Positions 7,525 to 33,190 of a stretch of 34,333 bases of DNA are shown here, piece after piece. The translations under genes were made by a program, and so were the position numbers. Numbering within the stretch: position 1 is the first letter of the stretch; each line of letters begins with the position of its first letter. The notes beneath the pieces were generated by a model, which saw nothing but the letters and a program-made list of their open reading frames with translations, had not been told where the DNA came from and searched no databases. Source of the stretch: Flavobacteriales bacterium (lineage in GTDB: Bacteria > Bacteroidota > Bacteroidia > Flavobacteriales_F > PHOS-HE28); assembly GCA_013360395.1 (NCBI GenBank), contig JABWBQ010000034.1:1-34333 (forward strand), read 5' to 3'.

Positions 7525-7532
7525 TAGATTTG
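7525..7532 (+). promoter_or_regulatory. Perfect TAnnTTTG box before the LamG/kelch gene
   Basis: TAGATTTG matches the Bacteroidota -7 consensus exactly and ends three bases before the ATG at 7536. A T-rich stretch (the tail of the rplS terminator, 7504-7508) sits at the -33 distance. A start point about seven bases downstream would fall inside the start codon region. Confidence 0.55.
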
Positions 7533-7535
7533 AAC

Positions 7536-9668
7536 ATGAGGTGGCTGCTCGTCATCACCCTGGGCATCGCGACCGCGCCTTCCCTGCTGGGGCAGGTGCC
7601 TGCGTCCGGGCGGGTCTGCCATCTTACCTTCAACGATAGCGTAGTGGACATTGGCCCGCTGGGGCTTGCCGTGGTCTCCAGCAGCACCCTGCATGCACCG
7701 GACCGGAACGGGGTGGTCGGTGCTTCGCTCCACCTCGAAGGGGTCACGGATTCGATCCATGTGGCCATGGCCGGTCTTGTCCCGGCCGCTCAGGCGTTCA
7801 CCTTTTCGATCTGGTATCGCTCCGCCTCACCCGAGCAACAAAGCCTGTTCTGTCGGCGGTCAACTCCTGCGGATACCACCACCAACCTCCACTGTGCGCT
7901 GAACACGAACGCCCCCTCCCAGCCCGTGTTGGAGCTGCACTATGGGACGTTCATCCATTGGAACGGCAGCGGCTCGGGCCAGAACGTCCTTGCGGAAGGC
8001 GTGCCGGGCCGGTTCACCGATGGTCGTTGGCATCATCACGTTCTCCAACGATCGTCGGATACACTGCGGATCTGGCACGATGGAGACCTCTATGCGGAGA
8101 CCCTGGCCTCCGGTGCTTTGGGAGGCGATCTCGATCTGGTGGTCGGAGGTGGTCCGTACGGCCTGAATGGCGACGTTGACGACCTTGTGGTCTATGACCG
8201 GGCATTGGACCACTCCGAGATCCAACAGCTTTACCACGACAGGGTCCCCTTGCGGTTCCTTGCTCCGGAGTCCACGGATGCCTATGCATGGGGCGATACC
8301 GCGTGGGTGAACTGGCGCTGGGATCCCGTTGCGGTCGGCGATTCGATCGACCTGGACCTCCGCCAGAACGGTGCGGGGGCATGGACCCCGATCGGCCATC
8401 CGGGCCTGACGGCCTGGACACCCTATCCCCTGCCCATGACCATGCCGGTCGGGACCACGGTCGAGCTGCGCATTCGCGACCGGTCCGATACCTCTCGGGT
8501 GGCCTATAGCGGCGGTTTCGTGGTGAGCTCGTACCGTTGGGATCCCGTGAGCCCCGCGCTCCCCTTCACACCACGCGACGGGGTCGGACTGTTGGCCCAT
8601 GCCGGGCAGATGTGGGCTTTGGGCGGATGGGACCCGCCCCATCATCCGCCGCACCACACCCATTCGGAGGTGTGGAGCACCATGGACGGACTGAACTGGA
8701 CACAGCATCCCGATGCACCCTGGCCGGGCCGGCATGTCAGTGGCTGGCTGGTGCACGATAGCGCGCTATGGGTGATCGGCGCGGACCCACAGAGCGGATG
8801 GCTCCAGGATGTGTGGCGGTCGGTCGATGGTGCCACATGGTCCCAGGTGACCGATAGCATCCAGGGCATGAACCCTTCGAGAACGATGCACCAAGTGGCC
8901 TCCATCGGCGACACGATGATCCACTTCGGCGGCCAGCAGGAAGCCTACGTTCCGGACAACCTCAATGAGGTATGGGCCAGCACCGATGGGATCGATTGGC
9001 AACAGCTGCCGGACGCCCCGTGGCCGGGGCGTGGCATGGTGTTGAACAGCTGCGTGGACGAGGATGGGACCTGCTGGCTCCTTGGTGGCGGTCGGCTTTG
9101 GGACCGACGTTGCTACAATGATGTGTGGAAGACCACGAACGGCGCGGATTGGGAGCTGGTGCTCGCGTCAGCGCCCTGGTCGCCCCGGTACTGGCACCAC
9201 GTGGCCTGGTTCGATGATCACATCTGGGTCGTCGCCGGTGTGGCCCGTCAGACCGACAACGCCGAGACCTGGTACTCCCCGGATGGGATCACCTGGCGCG
9301 AATTGAAGAACAGCCCCTTCCTTCCCAGGCATGCCGGTTCGATCTGTGTCTTCAACGATGCCCTTTGGCTGATGGCCGGCATCGCCTCGAACGATGCCTG
9401 GCGTCTGGTGAACACCTCGGTCCCGGCGGCCAATGACCCGTACCAGCTCCACTCCGATCCGCTCATCCACCCCAACCCCACCGACGGACCTGTAGATCTC
9501 GGGGAGCGTGTACGTTCCGTGTCGGTCCACGATCTCGCGGGACGCACGCTCATGGTCCAACGGAATGTCCGGACCCTGGATCTCGGCGGCCTGCAGGTGG
9601 GGTGTTATGTCATCGTGGTGGATGCCCTCGATGGTTCACGATCCAGCCATCGCGTGGTCCGTCGATAA
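7536..9668 (+). CDS. LamG and kelch-repeat T9SS cargo protein
   Basis: This 710-residue exported protein has a signal peptide (WLLVITLGIATAPSLLGQ). A LamG/concanavalin-like jellyroll follows (about residues 25-215, including F-T-F-S-I-W-Y-R-S and D-G-R-W-H-H, then N-G-D-V-D-D-L-V-V-Y-D-R-A-L). Next come an Ig-like segment (about 235-330) and five or six kelch-like blades (about 335-640), with recurring W-x-S-x-D-G-x-x-W and A-P-W-P/S-x-R motifs. The C-terminal 70 residues (from I-H-P-N-P-T-D-G-P-V) are a T9SS type A sorting domain. An in-frame TTG at 7530 is inside the promoter box, so ATG 7536 is preferred. Base composition and codon use look less GC-rich than its neighbours, which could reflect transfer. 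Function beyond a surface or secreted binding protein is unknown. Confidence 0.88.
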   Translation: MRWLLVITLGIATAPSLLGQVPASGRVCHLTFNDSVVDIGPLGLAVVSSSTLHAPDRNGVVGASLHLEGVTDSIHVAMAGLVPAAQAFTFSIWYRSASPEQQSLFCRRSTPADTTTNLHCALNTNAPSQPVLELHYGTFIHWNGSGSGQNVLAEGVPGRFTDGRWHHHVLQRSSDTLRIWHDGDLYAETLASGALGGDLDLVVGGGPYGLNGDVDDLVVYDRALDHSEIQQLYHDRVPLRFLAPESTDAYAWGDTAWVNWRWDPVAVGDSIDLDLRQNGAGAWTPIGHPGLTAWTPYPLPMTMPVGTTVELRIRDRSDTSRVAYSGGFVVSSYRWDPVSPALPFTPRDGVGLLAHAGQMWALGGWDPPHHPPHHTHSEVWSTMDGLNWTQHPDAPWPGRHVSGWLVHDSALWVIGADPQSGWLQDVWRSVDGATWSQVTDSIQGMNPSRTMHQVASIGDTMIHFGGQQEAYVPDNLNEVWASTDGIDWQQLPDAPWPGRGMVLNSCVDEDGTCWLLGGGRLWDRRCYNDVWKTTNGADWELVLASAPWSPRYWHHVAWFDDHIWVVAGVARQTDNAETWYSPDGITWRELKNSPFLPRHAGSICVFNDALWLMAGIASNDAWRLVNTSVPAANDPYQLHSDPLIHPNPTDGPVDLGERVRSVSVHDLAGRTLMVQRNVRTLDLGGLQVGCYVIVVDALDGSRSSHRVVRR

Positions 9669-25149: not shown

Positions 25150-28044
25150 ATGGCCCATCACCGCTACTTCCTGCCCTTGCTGGGGCTCCTGACCCTTACC
25201 GCGGATCCGTGGGCCACCCGGGCCCAGGCCCAGACCGTGCAGTTCAGCGTAGTGTCCCTTACCGTGCTGGAAAGCGCCGGGATCCAGAACATCGGGCTTA
25301 CCTGGGGCAGCACCCCCTGGCCCGGCGGCTCCATCACGGTGGACTGGGCCTTGAGCCCCGGGACCACCGAAGGCGCGGCCCCCAACGACTTCACCGCGGT
25401 CCCGGCGTATGCCGCGACGCTGACCATCACCCCCCCGGTGAACTCCACCTCCATGCCGTTGGCGATCCGCGTGGACCCCACGGACGACCTGCTGATCGAC
25501 GGAACGAACACGCTGACCTTCACCATCACGGCGGTCCCTGTCGGCATGTTCATCGGTGGCAGCGCGGTGTGCACCATGACCATCGCGGACGTCAACGCCC
25601 CGCCCACGGTGTTCGGCCAGGGCGACCTGGTGATCGTGGGGGTGAATGCCAACAATCAGGTGTGCAGCGGGGTCCTGAGCCAGGACGAGGTGAGCTTCTT
25701 CTGCTTCCAGGACATCACCCCCAACACCACCATCGACCTCACGGACTGTGGCTATGAATACTTGAACGCGGGGCAATGGGGCGACAACGAAGGGGCCGTG
25801 CGCATGACCCGGACGGGCCCGGCGATCCCGGCGGGAACGGTGATCACCTTCCGGATGAACAACACCGCCGGGAGCACCAACGTGAGCGGCGCGGCCCCCG
25901 ATGCCTTCTGGACCTGCACCCGGTTCACCTCTTTCGGCAATGCGCTGAACCTTAATGTGAACGGCGACCAGATCTTCTTCATGCAGAGCGCGCTGCCGCT
26001 GGCCACGGCCTGGACCAATCCCGGCGGCGCATCGAACGCCACGTACAACGGCACCGTTCTATACGGGTTCAGCACGAACGGAAGCTGGCTGAGCTTCCAG
26101 GGCTCGACAGGTCATTCGGGCCTGCCGCCGGGCATGCCGTGCTACAGCATGGGCCCCTCGGCCACCACGGACTGGAGCAAGTACATCGGCCCGCTCACCA
26201 TCACCACCCAACGGGGTTGGTTGATCCGCATCGACGACCCGCTGAACTGGACCTCCTACACCAGTTGCGCGAACTACAACGCGGGTCTGCCCAACTGGCT
26301 CACCGCCCCGGTGCTGCCGATCACGCCCGGCGGATTCATCCCCGGCCTGTGGACCGGCGCCAAGACGAACGACTGGTTCGACTGCCGCAACTGGGACGAC
26401 GCCCGGGTGCCGGTGGCCACCACCAATGTATTGATCGACCAGACCAGCCTGCAGAGCTGCGTGGTGGGCGGCGGCGGCACGGCGGTGTGCAACGACCTGA
26501 CCGTACGCACCAACGGTGTGAGCCGCTTCCTGTTCCTCAACGCTGCAAGCACCCTCAACGCCGGCGGCACCGTGGTGGTGGAACGCACGGGCGGGACGGG
26601 CCTGATGGGCATCGACATCACGGCGGGCAGCAGCTTCCTGTGCGACGAGATCAGCGTGAACGGCGTGAACGTGGGCACCCCCGATGCGCGGTTCCAGAGC
26701 GCGGCCCCGACCAACACCGTGACCGTGCTGAGCGATGTGAACATCATGCCCGGCGGCCTGCTGGACATGAGCAACGGCGTGGTCGGCGGCACCATCACCG
26801 TGGGCGGGGACTGGAACAACACGGCGGCCGAGACCAACTTCGACGAGATCGGCAGCACGGTGGTGATGAACGCCACGGGCAACCAGGGCATCCTGCCCAC
26901 CGGTTTCACCGAGGTGTTCAGCACCCTGCGCATCAACAAGCCTGCCGGCGACATCATCCTGGGCGATCCGGTGCGGGTGAACACCAACCTGGACCTGCTG
27001 CAGGGGCGGATCTTCAGCGCGCCGGGCCTCACCCTGGGCCCCACCGCCACCGCCACCAACGCCAGCGACCTGAGCTTCGTGCACGGTCCGCTGCAGAAGA
27101 TCGGCCTGACCGACCTCACCTACCCGGTGGGCAAGGGCAACAGCCTGCGGACCGCGCGGCTGCAGGGCCTCACCGGCGCGGGCACCGATGCCTTCACCGT
27201 GGAGTACTTCGCGGCCGACCCCCAGGCGACCTTCGGCAACACCCTGGATGCCACGCTGGACCACATCAGCAGCTGCGAGTACTGGATCATCGACCGCAGT
27301 GCCGGCACCCCCAACGCCACCGTGGTGCTGAGCTGGGACACGCCCGAGAGCTGCGGCGTCACGGCCCTGCCCGACCTGCGCGTGGCACGCTGGGACGGAG
27401 CGCTCTGGCTGGATCGCGGCAACGGGGCCACCACCGGCACCGTCGTTTCCGGCACGGTGGCCACGGCGGTGCAGCAGACCGCCTTCAGCCCCTGGACCCT
27501 GGCCTCGGTGAGCACGCAGAATCCGCTGCCGGTGGAGCTGCTGCATTTCACGGCCCGGCCGGAGGGCGACCGGGTGCGGCTGGACTGGGCCACGGCCAGC
27601 GAACGCAACAACGCCTTCTTCACCGTGGAACGCAGCGCGGACAACGCGCAATTCGCAGCACTGCTGGAAGTGGACGGTGCCGGGGACAGCCAGCAGCATT
27701 TGGCGTACAGCGCCTACGACGAGGCCCCGCTGCCGGGCACCAGCTACTACCGCCTGCGGCAGACCGACCACGACGGCACGAGCACGGTGAGCGTCGCCGT
27801 GCCGGTGCAGTTCCGCGATGCCGGGGCGCTGCCCGTGCTGTACACCGCCGACGGCACCCTGTGGCTGCGCCCGGGCGTGGCCAGCGGGGCATGGGCCGAG
27901 GTGCTCGATGCCAGCGGCCGTGCGGTGCGCCGCTTCCGTGCTGCGGATGCGGCTGCGATCCCGGTGCCGGTGGACGGTCTGCGTCCCGGCGCCTACCTGA
28001 TCCGCTTCGACGGCGGCACCGAGGTGCTACGCTTCCTGCGCTGA
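25150..28044 (+). CDS. Large multidomain T9SS cargo protein
   Basis: This 964-residue exported protein has a signal peptide (RYFLPLLGLLTLTADPWATRAQAQ). An N-terminal Calx-beta-like part follows (S-V-V-S-L-T-V-L-E-S-A-G, then T-F-T-I-T-A-V). Next is a cysteine-containing lamin-tail-like segment beginning G-D-L-V-I-V-G-V-N-A-N-N-Q near residue 160. A beta-rich region starts at about W-T-G-A-K-T-N-D-W-F-D-C-R-N-W-D near 405. A fibronectin-like part (P-V-E-L-L-H-F-T-A-R-P then W-A-T-A-S-E-R-N-N-A-F-F-T-V-E-R-S) precedes a short sorting-domain-like end (L-R-P-G-A-Y-L-I-R-F-D-G). An in-frame ATG at 25123 would add nine residues; 25150 opens the signal peptide directly. It overlaps the convergent bshC by 18 bases. 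The biological role is unknown. Confidence 0.87.
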   Translation: MAHHRYFLPLLGLLTLTADPWATRAQAQTVQFSVVSLTVLESAGIQNIGLTWGSTPWPGGSITVDWALSPGTTEGAAPNDFTAVPAYAATLTITPPVNSTSMPLAIRVDPTDDLLIDGTNTLTFTITAVPVGMFIGGSAVCTMTIADVNAPPTVFGQGDLVIVGVNANNQVCSGVLSQDEVSFFCFQDITPNTTIDLTDCGYEYLNAGQWGDNEGAVRMTRTGPAIPAGTVITFRMNNTAGSTNVSGAAPDAFWTCTRFTSFGNALNLNVNGDQIFFMQSALPLATAWTNPGGASNATYNGTVLYGFSTNGSWLSFQGSTGHSGLPPGMPCYSMGPSATTDWSKYIGPLTITTQRGWLIRIDDPLNWTSYTSCANYNAGLPNWLTAPVLPITPGGFIPGLWTGAKTNDWFDCRNWDDARVPVATTNVLIDQTSLQSCVVGGGGTAVCNDLTVRTNGVSRFLFLNAASTLNAGGTVVVERTGGTGLMGIDITAGSSFLCDEISVNGVNVGTPDARFQSAAPTNTVTVLSDVNIMPGGLLDMSNGVVGGTITVGGDWNNTAAETNFDEIGSTVVMNATGNQGILPTGFTEVFSTLRINKPAGDIILGDPVRVNTNLDLLQGRIFSAPGLTLGPTATATNASDLSFVHGPLQKIGLTDLTYPVGKGNSLRTARLQGLTGAGTDAFTVEYFAADPQATFGNTLDATLDHISSCEYWIIDRSAGTPNATVVLSWDTPESCGVTALPDLRVARWDGALWLDRGNGATTGTVVSGTVATAVQQTAFSPWTLASVSTQNPLPVELLHFTARPEGDRVRLDWATASERNNAFFTVERSADNAQFAALLEVDGAGDSQQHLAYSAYDEAPLPGTSYYRLRQTDHDGTSTVSVAVPVQFRDAGALPVLYTADGTLWLRPGVASGAWAEVLDASGRAVRRFRAADAAAIPVPVDGLRPGAYLIRFDGGTEVLRFLR

Positions 28045-29625
28045 GCGCGGCGGGGCCAGGAAGACGGAGAACTTTTTCTCCAACGGGTCCAGGACGTCGG
28101 TCATCCGGTCGGTGAGCGACGTGCCATGGTCGGCCAGCGGCACCAGGAACCCTTCGCGCCTTTCCGCCAGCACCCCGCCGGGGAGCACCGCCTCGCGCAA
28201 GGCGCCATAGCGGCGCAGCAGCACCGCACTGCGGTGCCTGGCCTCGCGCAACAACCGCTGCTCCAGGCGCTCCAGCCCATGCTGCGCACGCTGTTCGGCG
28301 CTCGCGGCCGAGCGCACGAACGTGGGGCCCGCTGCGGCGGTGCGCAGGGCCAGCGCACGGAACACGGTCCCCAGCGCCTCCCGTTCCCCCTGCAGCCGCG
28401 TGGGAAAGGGCGCGTCGCGCTCGGCCAGACGACGTTCCACCGCATGCCGGTCGGCGAAGAGGTCCTCCAGGGCCAGGTCCATGGCGGCGAGGCGTTCGGC
28501 ATCGCCCTCGGGCAGGAAGACGGCCGAGCTGCGCAGCACCGTCACCGGCATGGGCAGCTGCACCGCCTGGAACGCCCATCGCAGCTGCATCCAGTAGGCC
28601 AGCTCGCCACCGCCGCCCACGTAGGCCACGTTGGGCAGCACCGTCTCCTGGTACAACGGCCGCATCAGCACGTTCGGGGAGAAGTCCTCCGGCCGGGTCT
28701 CCAGTTCGTGCAGCGCTTCATCCATGGTCCAACGCGGACCGCCTTCCAGCACTTGCAGCCCGTCACCGTCCGGGGCGATCCGCGCACGCGATCCCTGGCC
28801 GAGGTGGAAGAGGTTGATGGGCCGCGCATGCGCCTGGGCATGATAGCCCTCCGGGAAACGGTCCTCGGCGTAGGCCACCGTGCGGGCCATGAGCCCGTGC
28901 AGCAACTCCTCACGCATCACCGGCGCGAAGAGCGCCTTCAAGACCGGATCGTCGCCATCGAGCACCACCAGGCCCAGGTGCCCGAACAGGCCGTTCATGA
29001 GGATGCGTGTGGCCCCGGCCAGCGTGTGGTGGGGTGCATAGGCTTGGCGGAGCAGACGGCGCACGCTGTCGGCCTGCGGTCCCAGCAACTGCTCGGCCTG
29101 CTGCAACGCTGTGGCGATGCCGGTGAGCGGCATGCGGCCCACCGGCCCACCGGCCTGCGCCGCCCACTGTACACGCTGCCCGCGCAGCAGCACGTGGTCC
29201 ACCTCGGCCAGGTCGTGGTCCTCGGTGGCCATCCAGAACACGGGTACCACGGGGCGCGCCTCCGTGGACAGGTCGCGAGCCAGCCGCACGGCGTTGAGCA
29301 CCTTGAGCAGCACGAACAGCGGTCCGCCGAAAAGACAGAGCTGGTGCCCGGTGGTGACCGTGAGCGTACCGGACCGGGCCAGCCGGTCCAGGTTGTCCTG
29401 CACGGCCTGCGGGCGGTCCAACGCACCGTACTGCCGGCGCAGCGCATCGGCGAGGGCCATGCGGTGGGCGGCCGGGAACGCACGGGCGGCCAGGGCCTCC
29501 TGCAAACCGGCGGCGTGGAAGCCGAACTGGCGGAAAGGATGCAACGCGGGCGCATCCTCCAGCAGGTCGGCGACGAGGGTGCTCGGCCGGACCGTGTCCG
29601 TGTAGGGCAGGACGATGCGCCGCAT
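28027..29625 (-). CDS. bshC: Bacillithiol biosynthesis cysteine-adding enzyme BshC
   Basis: BshC adds cysteine to glucosaminyl-malate in the last step of bacillithiol synthesis, giving the cell its low-molecular-weight thiol. The 532-residue product has the usual length. Typical motifs include V-T-T-G-H-Q-L-C-L-F-G-G-P-L-F-V-L-L-K near residue 95, P-V-F-W-M-A-T-E-D-H-D-L-A-E-V near 135 and the later Y-V-G-G-G-G-E-L-A-Y-W near 335, followed by a coiled-coil-like C-terminal region. It acts in the cytoplasm. bshA and bshB are not in this window. ATG 29625 is preferred because a perfect promoter box lies just upstream; the frame extends further upstream without family similarity. Confidence 0.95.
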   Translation of the reverse strand: MRRIVLPYTDTVRPSTLVADLLEDAPALHPFRQFGFHAAGLQEALAARAFPAAHRMALADALRRQYGALDRPQAVQDNLDRLARSGTLTVTTGHQLCLFGGPLFVLLKVLNAVRLARDLSTEARPVVPVFWMATEDHDLAEVDHVLLRGQRVQWAAQAGGPVGRMPLTGIATALQQAEQLLGPQADSVRRLLRQAYAPHHTLAGATRILMNGLFGHLGLVVLDGDDPVLKALFAPVMREELLHGLMARTVAYAEDRFPEGYHAQAHARPINLFHLGQGSRARIAPDGDGLQVLEGGPRWTMDEALHELETRPEDFSPNVLMRPLYQETVLPNVAYVGGGGELAYWMQLRWAFQAVQLPMPVTVLRSSAVFLPEGDAERLAAMDLALEDLFADRHAVERRLAERDAPFPTRLQGEREALGTVFRALALRTAAAGPTFVRSAASAEQRAQHGLERLEQRLLREARHRSAVLLRRYGALREAVLPGGVLAERREGFLVPLADHGTSLTDRMTDVLDPLEKKFSVFLAPPRSAQEA

Positions 29626-29631
29626 GGCGGG

Positions 29632-29639
29632 CAAAGGTA
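29632..29639 (-). promoter_or_regulatory. Perfect TAnnTTTG box before bshC
   Basis: TACCTTTG on the minus strand ends six bases before the bshC ATG (29625). With the usual seven-base distance to the start point, transcription would begin on the start codon. No TTTG is seen at -33. Confidence 0.5.
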
Positions 29640-29713
29640 GCCGGGGGCGTGGCGGCCGGGAGGGAACCCACGACAGGCCGCGCATCCCGAGCATGCGGCC
29701 GAAGGCATCCGCG

Positions 29714-29721
29714 TACCTTCC
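29714..29721 (+). promoter_or_regulatory. Putative -7 box (TACCTTCC) before the large PNGase-like gene
   Basis: TACCTTCC matches TAnnTT and ends four bases before ATG 29726, the same geometry as at rarA and bshC. It is divergent from the bshC box 75 bases away. Confidence 0.45.
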
Positions 29722-29725
29722 CCCC

Positions 29726-32700
29726 ATGCTGGACACGACCCGACGTGCGCTGCTCGTGGTGCACATGGCCTTTACCCTCACGCCGTGCTTCGCGCAGGAG
29801 GACACCGTGCGCGTGCAGACCCTCACCTTCGACAGCATCACCACCCGGCGCGGCTGCTGGGTGTTCCCCGACGCTTCGCACACCTACCGCAAGGTGCTGA
29901 TGCACCACACGTTGAAGTGCGATCCGCAGACCACGCAGGACCAGTACGCCTGCGGCGAGTGGGACTACCTCACCCACAACCTCATCCACGAGCACACCGG
30001 CGTGCTGGACAGCAATGCGCTGCAGCATCCCTGGTTCAAGGTGGGGGCTGCGGCCCCGGGGAGTGTGGATCGCGCCGCGATGCCGAGCTACGACATCCGG
30101 CAGATCGCCGTTCCGCGGCGCACCGTGATCGGCACCTTGAGCGAGGCCCTTCATCCGGTGGGCAGCGGTGGCGCCTGGGATGGTGGCCTGCTGCAGGCCG
30201 TGCAGGGCACCAGCCGCACGCAGGCCCTCTACCTGGCCTCCGAGCTTTCCGCGGCGGGACTGCAACCCGGGTCCATCGCGCAGTTGCGCTTCACCACGGA
30301 CGGTCAGGGCAACGGGGCCTTCGGGCGTTTCACCATCCGCATGAAGCAGACCCAGGCGACATCGGCAGGCCCCGGTTTCGACGATAGCGCTCTGATGACC
30401 GTGCACGAGGTGGCCCCCCCCACCCTGGGCACGGTTGCCGGTGAGCAGGTGTTCGTGCTCGAGCCGCCCTTCGTGTGGGACGGCAGCTCGAACCTCCTGG
30501 TGGACCTGGCCGCGGCGCGCAGTGCGGGTCTGTCGGCCCCGCAGGTGGTGGGCACGGCGATGCCCGACCTGGCCGTGCAGGCCGTGGGCCGCGATGGCCA
30601 CCTGCTGCTGAAGGATGACCTCATCGGTGTGGACCCCGCCCCGCTGGCCAACGTGGGCCCGGCGATCACCCTCATGTTCCGTGCGTGGGGCGACAGCATC
30701 CTGCCGGTGAACACCACGGCGTTGGAGGCGGTGGACGCCGCGGGGCGCCGCGTGCTGAACGTACACCTGCCCTGGAGCAACGAGCGTGTGTACTGGGATG
30801 CCGGCCAGGACGGCACCGGCTACGACCGCATCGACAAGGCGGCCACCACGGCTGACCTGGAAGGGCGGTGGAACCATTGGGCCTTCGTGAAGAACGCCGC
30901 CACCGGCAGCATGAAGATCTACCTCAACGGCGTGCTGTGGCACAGCGGGACCGGCAAGACGAGGCCCCTCGCCGGCATCACCACCTTCCGGCTGGCCAGC
31001 GGCGCCAATGGCGAATTCCCTTACCCCGGCGCGATGGACGAGGTCAACGTGTTCAACACCGAGGTCGATGCCGCCACCATCGCCGCCTGGGCCGATCGTG
31101 CCGTGGATGCCACGCACCCCAACGCCGCCGACCTGCTGTACAGTTTCCACTGCGACGAGCTGCCTGGGGAGCACATACTGGTGAACGCCGCCGACCCCGC
31201 GCACAACGCCTGGCCACTGGGCACGCCCCGCCGCAGCTTTCGCGAAGCCATCGACCTGCACCACACCGCACACCCCGTCACCGTCCGGCCCGACCTGGTC
31301 TTCGTGCAGGGCACGTACACCTCGGTGACCGACACGGTGCTGCTGGAGCGCCCCGAGCCGCGCGAGCTGCTCACACAGGAGCACTTCCAGGTGAACGGCA
31401 ATGGCGTGGTGCCCGTGGACACCGTGTTCAGCTGGCTCGGCGGCCACACCCGCACCTTCGCACCGGACGGCGCGGTGCTCGACTCGGCCCTGGTGCCCTC
31501 CACCCTCGACCTCAACGACACGCTGCACTACTACGGCGTCCCCTTCGAGGTGGTGAACAATTGGGAGATCGGGCGCTACATCACGCCGTACGGCATCGGC
31601 CTGTCCTTGGGGCCCCAGGGTTTCCGATGGACCTTCGACGTCACCGACTACCAATGGCTGTTGCACGACAGCGTGGAGCTGAGCGCGGGCAACCAGCAGG
31701 AGCTGATCGACCTGGAGTTCGAGCTGATCGAAGGCACCCCGCCGCGCACCGTGGTGGCCCACCAGCGCCCCTGGGGCGGCCTCACCAGCCGCAGCTACGC
31801 CGACCTCAGCAACGACGTGGCCCTTCCTCCGGTGACCGTGCAGCTGAGCCCCGCCGCCAGCCAGTGGAGCCTGCGCACCCGCCTCACCGGCCACGGCCAC
31901 AACAGCAACGACGGCCAGTATCCGCACTGCTGCGAGTGGAAGGACAACACCCACTACCTCTATCTCAACGGCATCGAGCAGGACGCCTGGCACATTTGGC
32001 AGACGAACGACTGCGCGCTGAACCCCGTGTACCCGCAGGGCGGCACCTGGCTCGGCAGCCGCGAGGGCTGGTGCCCGGGCGACCTGGTGAAGGACCATGA
32101 GGTGCAGTTGCCCGGCCTGTCGCCCGGCGGCACCGCCACGCTGGACTACCGCATCACCCCGGTGCCCGCCAACAACCAAGGCATGGGCGGCGGCAACTAC
32201 GTGATCAACATGGACCTGCTGGAGTTCGGCGCAGCCGCCCACGCGCTCGATGCCGAGATCGTGGAGGTGCAGCGCCCCAGCACCACGGACATGCACCGCC
32301 GCAACAACCCGCTGTGCCACGACCCGCTGGTGGTGCTGCGCAACGCGGGCGCCCAGGACCTCACGAGCGTCACCTTCACCTACGGCGTGGAGGGCGGGAC
32401 CCCGATGAGCTGGACCTGGACAGGCCTGCTGAAGCACATGGAGCGCACCGAGGTGGTGCTGCCGGTGGATGGCGCGGGCTTCTGGGTGGGCACCGATCCT
32501 TCGGTCTTCACGGTGAGCGTGAGCGCGCCCAACGGCGGGGCCGATGCCAACCCGGTGAACGACAGCTACCGCACCGCCTTCGCGCTGCCGGCCGTGTATC
32601 CGGAGACCATCGTGGTGAACTACAAGACCAACAACTTCCCCGGCGAGAACAGCCTCAGCATCCGCGACGTGTACGGCAGCACCATCTTCGAACGCACGAA

Positions 32701-33190
32701 CCACGCGGCCAACACCACCTACTCCGACACGCTGACGCTCTTCGCCGGCTGCTACACGGTGGAGTTCCTCGACACCGGCAACGACGGCCTCAGCTACTGG
32801 GCCGATCCGGGGGCCGGCAACGGCTACTTCCGCCTGCGCCGCACCACGGGCAGCATCCTCAAGAGCTTCGACCCCGAGTTCGGCCGCAGCATCAAGTGGT
32901 CGTTCACCAGCGGTGCGCTGGTGGGCGTGGAGGAGCTGGTGCCCGCCGCTGCGCTGGAGGCCTGGCCCAACCCCACCAACGGCCTGCTGACCATGGGCGT
33001 GGAGGGGATCCTGGGCGATGCGCTGGTGGAAGTGCTGGACATGCGCGGGGCCGTGGTGAAGCGGCAGCAGCGTGCGCTGCACGGCGGCGACCGCCTCTCG
33101 CTCGACCTGTCCGGCATGGCCGACGGCCTCTACGAGGTGCGCGTCACCGGTCCCGATCGCCGGGCCCAGGCGCGCGTGGTGAAGCAGTGA
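29726..33190 (+). CDS. Large PNGase F-like T9SS cargo with nested LamG-type insertion
   Basis: This 1154-residue exported protein has a signal peptide (LLVVHMAFTLTPCFAQ). A PNGase F-like N-half begins with Y-A-C-G-E-W-D-Y-L (Asp80, equivalent to PNGase F Asp60) and resumes only at W-E-I-G-R-Y-I-T-P-Y-G near residue 613. The roughly 520 residues between hold a beta-rich domain (about 130-300) and a LamG-like jellyroll (about 330-480; W-N-H-W-A-F-V-K then M-D-E-V-N-V-F). The PNGase C-half has T-G-H-G-H-N, C-C-E-W (Glu737, equivalent to Glu206), D-C-A-L-N-P and G-T-W then E-G-W-C-P-G. A domain shared with the 10162 gene and a type A sorting domain (from W-P-N-P-T-N-G, ending RVVKQ) close it. Deglycosylation is possible but unproven; no residue obviously replaces PNGase F Glu118. 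Confidence 0.87.
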   Translation: MLDTTRRALLVVHMAFTLTPCFAQEDTVRVQTLTFDSITTRRGCWVFPDASHTYRKVLMHHTLKCDPQTTQDQYACGEWDYLTHNLIHEHTGVLDSNALQHPWFKVGAAAPGSVDRAAMPSYDIRQIAVPRRTVIGTLSEALHPVGSGGAWDGGLLQAVQGTSRTQALYLASELSAAGLQPGSIAQLRFTTDGQGNGAFGRFTIRMKQTQATSAGPGFDDSALMTVHEVAPPTLGTVAGEQVFVLEPPFVWDGSSNLLVDLAAARSAGLSAPQVVGTAMPDLAVQAVGRDGHLLLKDDLIGVDPAPLANVGPAITLMFRAWGDSILPVNTTALEAVDAAGRRVLNVHLPWSNERVYWDAGQDGTGYDRIDKAATTADLEGRWNHWAFVKNAATGSMKIYLNGVLWHSGTGKTRPLAGITTFRLASGANGEFPYPGAMDEVNVFNTEVDAATIAAWADRAVDATHPNAADLLYSFHCDELPGEHILVNAADPAHNAWPLGTPRRSFREAIDLHHTAHPVTVRPDLVFVQGTYTSVTDTVLLERPEPRELLTQEHFQVNGNGVVPVDTVFSWLGGHTRTFAPDGAVLDSALVPSTLDLNDTLHYYGVPFEVVNNWEIGRYITPYGIGLSLGPQGFRWTFDVTDYQWLLHDSVELSAGNQQELIDLEFELIEGTPPRTVVAHQRPWGGLTSRSYADLSNDVALPPVTVQLSPAASQWSLRTRLTGHGHNSNDGQYPHCCEWKDNTHYLYLNGIEQDAWHIWQTNDCALNPVYPQGGTWLGSREGWCPGDLVKDHEVQLPGLSPGGTATLDYRITPVPANNQGMGGGNYVINMDLLEFGAAAHALDAEIVEVQRPSTTDMHRRNNPLCHDPLVVLRNAGAQDLTSVTFTYGVEGGTPMSWTWTGLLKHMERTEVVLPVDGAGFWVGTDPSVFTVSVSAPNGGADANPVNDSYRTAFALPAVYPETIVVNYKTNNFPGENSLSIRDVYGSTIFERTNHAANTTYSDTLTLFAGCYTVEFLDTGNDGLSYWADPGAGNGYFRLRRTTGSILKSFDPEFGRSIKWSFTSGALVGVEELVPAAALEAWPNPTNGLLTMGVEGILGDALVEVLDMRGAVVKRQQRALHGGDRLSLDLSGMADGLYEVRVTGPDRRAQARVVKQ

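Follow-up and report, generated by a model that had tools for sequence, protein, structure and literature searches.

What happens to an enzyme fold when some 510 residues are placed in the middle of it is the question raised by one gene of a Flavobacteriales bacterium (assembly GCA_013360395.1, contig JABWBQ010000034.1, 34,333 nucleotides, here called the window). The gene encodes P0001, an 1154-residue protein of the PNGase F (peptide:N-glycanase F) superfamily. A previous sequence-only reading had noted that the EWD motif is soon followed by an (I/L)-T-P-Y strand in PNGase F and in the 633-residue paralog P0002, whereas in P0001 about 520 residues with a beta-rich domain and a LamG-like jelly-roll intervene. 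Sequence, structural model and relatives that do not carry the insert agree that this is so, and that the insert lies inside one PNGase F-like domain. We consider P0001 to be a peptide:N-glycanase secreted by the type IX secretion system (T9SS), with a substrate-targeting module (a beta module, D1, and the LamG jelly-roll) nested via a stalk in the catalytic hairpin (probability about 0.72). The features are as follows.

29726..33190 (+): P0001, 1154-residue secreted PNGase F-superfamily protein of nested architecture; ATG start at 29726
29801..30013 (+): PNGase F fold piece 1, residues 26–96, with the catalytic-Asp motif; aligned by profile to PNGase F 26–71
29957..29965 (+): EWD, residues 78–80; Asp80 corresponds to PNGase F Asp60 by profile alignment and conservation
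30014..30148 (+): outgoing stalk strands, residues 97–141; strands in the model to residue 145, and stalk profile
30149..30595 (+): D1 beta module, residues 142–290; also in other long open reading frames (ORFs) of these genomes
30596..31135 (+): LamG/pentraxin-like jelly-roll, residues 291–470; Pfam Laminin_G_3, VIA-align Z 19–23
31136..31540 (+): linker and returning stalk strands, residues 471–605; model strands 524–603, and stalk profile
31541..32215 (+): PNGase F fold piece 2, residues 606–830, with ITPY, His723, Glu737 and Arg779; profile, Pfam and VIA-align
31580-31591 (+): ITPY, residues 619–622 of P0001
31892..31894 (+): His723, at the position of PNGase F Trp191; His in 129/129 nested ORFs
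31934..31936 (+): Glu737, corresponding to PNGase F Glu206; Glu in 127/129 nested ORFs
32216..32962 (+): C-terminal region common to compact relatives, residues 831–1079; alignment with the compact protein L070; basis of the core trees
32963..33187 (+): T9SS type A sorting domain, residues 1080–1154; Por_Secre_tail in Pfam, TIGR04183
10162..12063 (+): P0002, compact 633-residue paralog without insert

With a 64-member profile, the two pieces of P0001 align in order to a single PNGase F chain, the piece with EWD to residues 26–71 and the piece with ITPY to residues 76–297. In P0002, EWD is at 73–75 and LTPY at 98, and the same two stretches fall within PNGase F residues 58–85. From the end of the N-segment to the start of the C-segment the extra length is 510 residues in P0001 versus 5 in P0002. 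Taken alone, the N-terminal match is weak (∼ 6 bits); what supports it is the motif, together with the conserved cysteines and its position along the chain. The N-segment profile matched P0001 with E 6e-39, P0001 itself being among the profile members. A single-sequence search of solved structures matched PNGase F only after residue 611. An AlphaFold2 model of residues 24–836 (64 sequences) had a mean predicted local distance difference test score (pLDDT) of 91.2 and a predicted template-modelling score (pTM) of 0.67. VIA-align superposed this model on 1pgs with Z 24.6 and a root-mean-square deviation (rmsd) of 3.1 for 278 of 311 residues, over model range 2–813, which requires both halves. 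The predicted model thus confirmed P0001 as a single PNGase F double jelly-roll split by ∼ 510 residues, and sequence and model show that the split lies in the hairpin between the catalytic-Asp strand and the ITPY strand. The interval originally proposed for the insert, 29965-31561, also takes in ∼ 15 residues of shared N-side strand; the insert itself spans residues ∼ 97–605 (30014-31540). The next PNGases by VIA-align were the zebrafish acid PNGase Ngly2 (9LWG, Z 22.7) and PNGF-II (Z 21.2), and the Bacteroides group 1 and 2 PNGases and PNGase F-II (3KS7, 4QHB, 7ZGN, 4R4X) share the catalytic fold with Z 19.7–21.2. Pfam places Laminin_G_3 at 350–453, N-glycanase_C at 691–818 (45.2 bits, cut-off 25) and the T9SS tail in P0001. 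Given the fold over 278 of 311 residues, the catalytic pair and N-glycanase_C, P0001 belongs to the PNGase F superfamily.

Modelled alone (residues 88–604), the insert reached pLDDT 95.4 and pTM 0.90 and is therefore predicted to be an autonomous unit. Its LamG-like jelly-roll was borne out by Laminin_G_3 (47.2 bits, cut-off 27.6) and by fold matches to pentraxins, PAPP-A and 4dqa, a Bacteroides putative carbohydrate-binding protein, at Z 19–23 (maximum 23.1). The P0001 match starts at profile position 51 and a truncated LamG was suspected; relatives that cover the 151-position profile (L135, 1–151; L039, 3–151) rule this out, and the domain is complete. Dimethylformamidase (6LVB) matched the LamG and a few flanking strands (Z 21.6), and the amidases dimethylformamidase and N-acetyl-beta-phenylalanine acylase match window 30038-31441, i.e. 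P0001 residues 105–572. Many unrelated lectin-like domains with high rmsd were also among the Foldseek matches and were set aside. Elsewhere in the window, 7530-9668 (+) encodes another secreted-type protein with a LamG domain and Kelch repeats. D1 is a T9SS-type beta module and a common one: the genome of P0001 contains four further matches to it, and long frames of related bacteria contain many.

The stalk was recognized by comparison with relatives. Between the profile segments, the linker falls into three discrete classes of 0–24, 102–106 and 493–523 residues, with nothing in between. The 102–106-residue class has neither D1 nor LamG. Stalk profiles made from nested proteins (outgoing 90–145, returning 505–606) match 13/13 of these mid-class proteins, with E-values of 1e-13 to 9e-6 for the outgoing and 3e-18 to 8e-5 for the returning part (generous values, as the database was small); 0/6 compact proteins were above the inclusion threshold. 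Since the mid-class linker matches only the outer stalk, the long insert is an insert within an insert. The D1–LamG cassette thus sits at the tip of a hairpin that itself extends the PNGase hairpin.

A search for the same architecture in other genomes, which the sequence-only reading had proposed, was productive. After removal of duplicates, the fetched loci comprised 107 nested, 13 stalk-class and 36 compact proteins, and D1 and LamG were both present in all 107 nested proteins. Thirteen distinct relatives are without the inner part of the insert, and L070, L212 and L202 are without all of it. The 20 frames of 1148–1189 residues selected from the class listing were all nested; PF09113 was found in 53/98 relatives and in 203/395 genomes of the class. 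Named genomes were scanned with the nested alignment, giving at least 576 confirmed relatives among at least 592 matched stretches, of which the best 80 were retained; this selection is biased towards nested forms of full length. Among these 80, both motifs are 523–548 residues apart in 66 of the 69 parsed proteins; the other three had no parsable EWD (two contig-cut, one missed by the pattern) and 11 were not parsed. Such recurrence excludes chance as well as an assembly error. Record titles among the relatives include Flavobacteriales, Saprospiraceae, Bacteroidales, Ignavibacteria, Chlorobiota and Candidatus Kapaibacterium. The earlier description of the arrangement as unusual has to be restricted: within this group it is common, although no description of the nested form was found in the PNGase literature searched. 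That search took in parts of PMC8812541, PMC9522356, PMC12753239 and PMC12381499, with supplements and most subscription journals outside it.

Core trees were built on the region after the insert. The first had 78 rows (30 nested, 29 compact, 12 stalk and 7 outgroup), leaving out one contig-cut stalk protein, many further nested and some compact proteins. All 30 nested rows fell in one clade of 34 (99/92), together with three compact rows and one stalk row, a placement that points towards the cassette having been lost there. When a single nested clade was examined by the approximately unbiased test, p was 0.044 (0.159 with L185 included), so a single gain of the cassette is only weakly rejected. 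The 'stalk' label needs six changes on the tree; because the stalk sequences are homologous, we infer that an old stalk was lost repeatedly. L176 (stalked) and L180 (stalk-less and ∼ 100 residues shorter there) share a genus code and represent a natural deletion.

What such a protein might do can be read in part from its active site. The parts of PMC12381499 that were covered describe a PNGase pattern of aromatic-D-aromatic/positive, plus a His (Trp in PNGase F) and a Glu at the first GlcNAc (N-acetylglucosamine). W79-D80-Y81, H723 and E737 of P0001 conform to it, and WDY is nearly invariant in the nested ORFs. PMC12753239 reports that Asp and Glu are essential in the zebrafish enzyme, and the same is stated there for PNGase F. 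The N-terminus of P0001 is hydrophobic, judged by eye, and both TIGR04183 (NCBIfam; 36.1 bits, cut-off 23) and the Pfam T9SS tail are over cut-off. The T9SS tail, the conserved catalytic pair and the lectin-like insert together suggest an extracellular deglycosylase that holds its substrate. In the mechanism that we propose, the PNGase hairpin is lengthened to form a beta stalk bearing D1 and the LamG jelly-roll, as profiles and model show, and the two halves are predicted to fold back as one PNGase domain. The D1–LamG unit, autonomously folding and exchangeable, would most likely bind a glycan or glycoprotein and keep the amidase at its substrate, where GlcNAc–Asn bonds would be cut with Asp80 and Glu737, to judge from the conserved residues.

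Several observations weigh against this reading. With a pTM of 0.67 for the full model, the orientation of the insert is uncertain. Both fold searches with the insert were filled by LamG matches and gave no identification of D1, whose absence from those lists is uninformative. Glu118, another acidic residue of PNGase F, has been lost: its column is Q/W/T/N in the subfamily, with Q657 in P0001, and an invariant Glu659 stands two positions further on. For this reason P0001 is assigned to the superfamily rather than counted among orthologues of PNGase F. Conservation is lower in the insert than in the core, with median identities of relatives to P0001 of 0.17–0.45 compared with 0.59–0.60 for the core pieces. 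SusD was not found in the genome and no conserved glycan-gene neighbours were seen, flanking genes being kept only among near relatives. A polysaccharide-utilization context was rejected on the strength of these last two results, and a role in sugar uptake is unsupported. The gene directly upstream encodes BshC of bacillithiol synthesis (window 28027-29883, –), and it too adjoins the nested gene only among near relatives. In view of the missing SusD and the unrelated neighbours, removal of N-glycans to make protein accessible to digestion would be no less likely a role than sugar uptake. In favour of the proposed N-glycanase, a GH92 glycosidase is encoded on another contig of the same genome (L233; C95, 4929-8543, 1204 residues in the longest frame) and is a possible partner in N-glycan breakdown.

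The insert might instead be a spacer, a dimerization element or a device to orient the enzyme at the cell surface, with no part in substrate binding. This is unlikely in our view, albeit the strongest of the alternatives, and the core indeed does without the insert in compact relatives and without the stalk in L180, the sister of stalked L176. The history of the LamG is more in keeping with selection for a ligand site. Over 5778 pairs, the correlation between core and LamG identities is only 0.37. L066 and L227, which share a genus code, have cores that are 80% identical and LamG stretches that are 17–47% identical, and the closest LamG of each is found in another protein; such cores with different LamG types argue that the inner module was exchanged. 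Two LamG types, A and B, require five changes on a 107-row core tree, at least three of them forced by starred branches. The types were scored by short motifs, two of the 107 rows being unclear, and L232 was typed A even though its LamG is closest to that of L066, which makes the count of switches approximate; the long branches of L219 and L039/L040 also meet in this tree. Median identity to P0001 is higher for LamG (0.45) than for D1 (0.28) or the linker (0.17), the returning and outgoing stalk being at 0.28 and 0.24. The LamG fold and the exchange of LamG types on conserved cores favour the putative substrate-binding module over a spacer.

It is more improbable still that the nested proteins are mostly adhesins, binding proteins whose PNGase domain has decayed. 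The loss of Glu118 would agree with this, as would L039 (3564-7010, –) and L040 (2533-5985, +), two paralogs of a single genome in which the Glu206 segment is gone but Asp60 and the whole insert remain. L039 retains its T9SS tail, and the two are possible binding-only derivatives, going by sequence. They are the only exceptions, however: Asp60 is kept in 129/129 and Glu206 in 127/129 nested ORFs (duplicates included), and conservation along the protein is highest in the core columns. In the same ORFs, Arg61 is replaced by Tyr in 128 and Trp191 by His in all 129.

We give very little weight to an unrelated first EWD, with the PNGase domain starting only after the insert. Pfam N-glycanase_N is not called in P0001, where the insert splits the model; in compact P0002 this domain is below cut-off as well (15.7 versus 22.4). 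The compact relative L070 has the same N-segment, and the two-piece profile alignment and the joint superposition across the split rule the idea out as far as a predicted structure can; the sequence-only reading had named an EWD segment that does not pack with the later half as the outcome that would overturn it, and the halves of the model instead superpose on PNGase F together. An assembly chimera or sequencing artefact, conceivable for a window from a multi-contig draft genome, is ruled out by the one open frame and by the recurrence of its junctions in 107 distinct proteins across many assemblies.

Compared with PNGase F of Elizabethkingia meningoseptica (1PGS, 1PNF), P0001 shares the double jelly-roll, Asp60 and Glu206, the strand order and the cysteine pattern. 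It differs in the ∼ 510 residues between PNGase F positions 71 and 76, in Tyr at Arg61, His at Trp191 and the missing Glu118, and in its added C-terminal region and T9SS tail. Ngly2 has in common with it the catalytic pair and, as reported, active-site histidines; its accessory thioredoxin-like and PA domains, in contrast, lie on the N-terminal side. PNGaseL and the other five enzymes of PMC12381499 share the catalytic module and residue pattern, and two of the six have T9SS tails, according to the parts of that paper covered. Judged by the descriptions given there, these six carry accessory modules at the N- or C-terminus only. PTX3, PAPP-A and 4DQA resemble the inner module in fold, whereas the LamG of P0001 is nested in a PNGase through a stalk.

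In the PNGase papers covered, then, accessory modules are N- or C-terminal, and here a lectin-like module lies inside the catalytic fold. The junction holds nothing, ∼ 100 or ∼ 500 residues, with no intermediates in the set examined, and the recurrence in many related bacteria suggests a plug-in site for binding modules. Tentatively, and with slightly less than even confidence, we propose that the PNGase hairpin has long been used in this way (empty, with stalk, or with stalk and exchangeable D1–LamG). The clade would redirect one conserved deglycosylase to other targets by exchanging a lectin that lies two levels down inside the catalytic domain, the cassette being kept as a binder after catalysis was lost (L039, L040) or excised to stalk-only and compact forms. 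The group provides matched forms for studying how an internal module affects enzyme specificity: empty, stalk-only, full, with an exchanged LamG, and without the catalytic Glu. PNGases are a widely used enzyme class, and the junction offers a natural site for adding binding modules.

Among the remaining proteins, L048, L038 and L208 are PNGase-like and have a LamG-like match upstream of the C-segment; neither ahead of this match nor between it and the C-segment was an N-segment detected. Of the three, L048 and L038 are members of the AAEF subfamily. L095 and L116 are relatives (67% and 47% identity) in metagenome-assembled genome records titled Chryseobacterium gleum. These titles look doubtful, and both proteins resemble the uncultured Flavobacteriales group of P0001.
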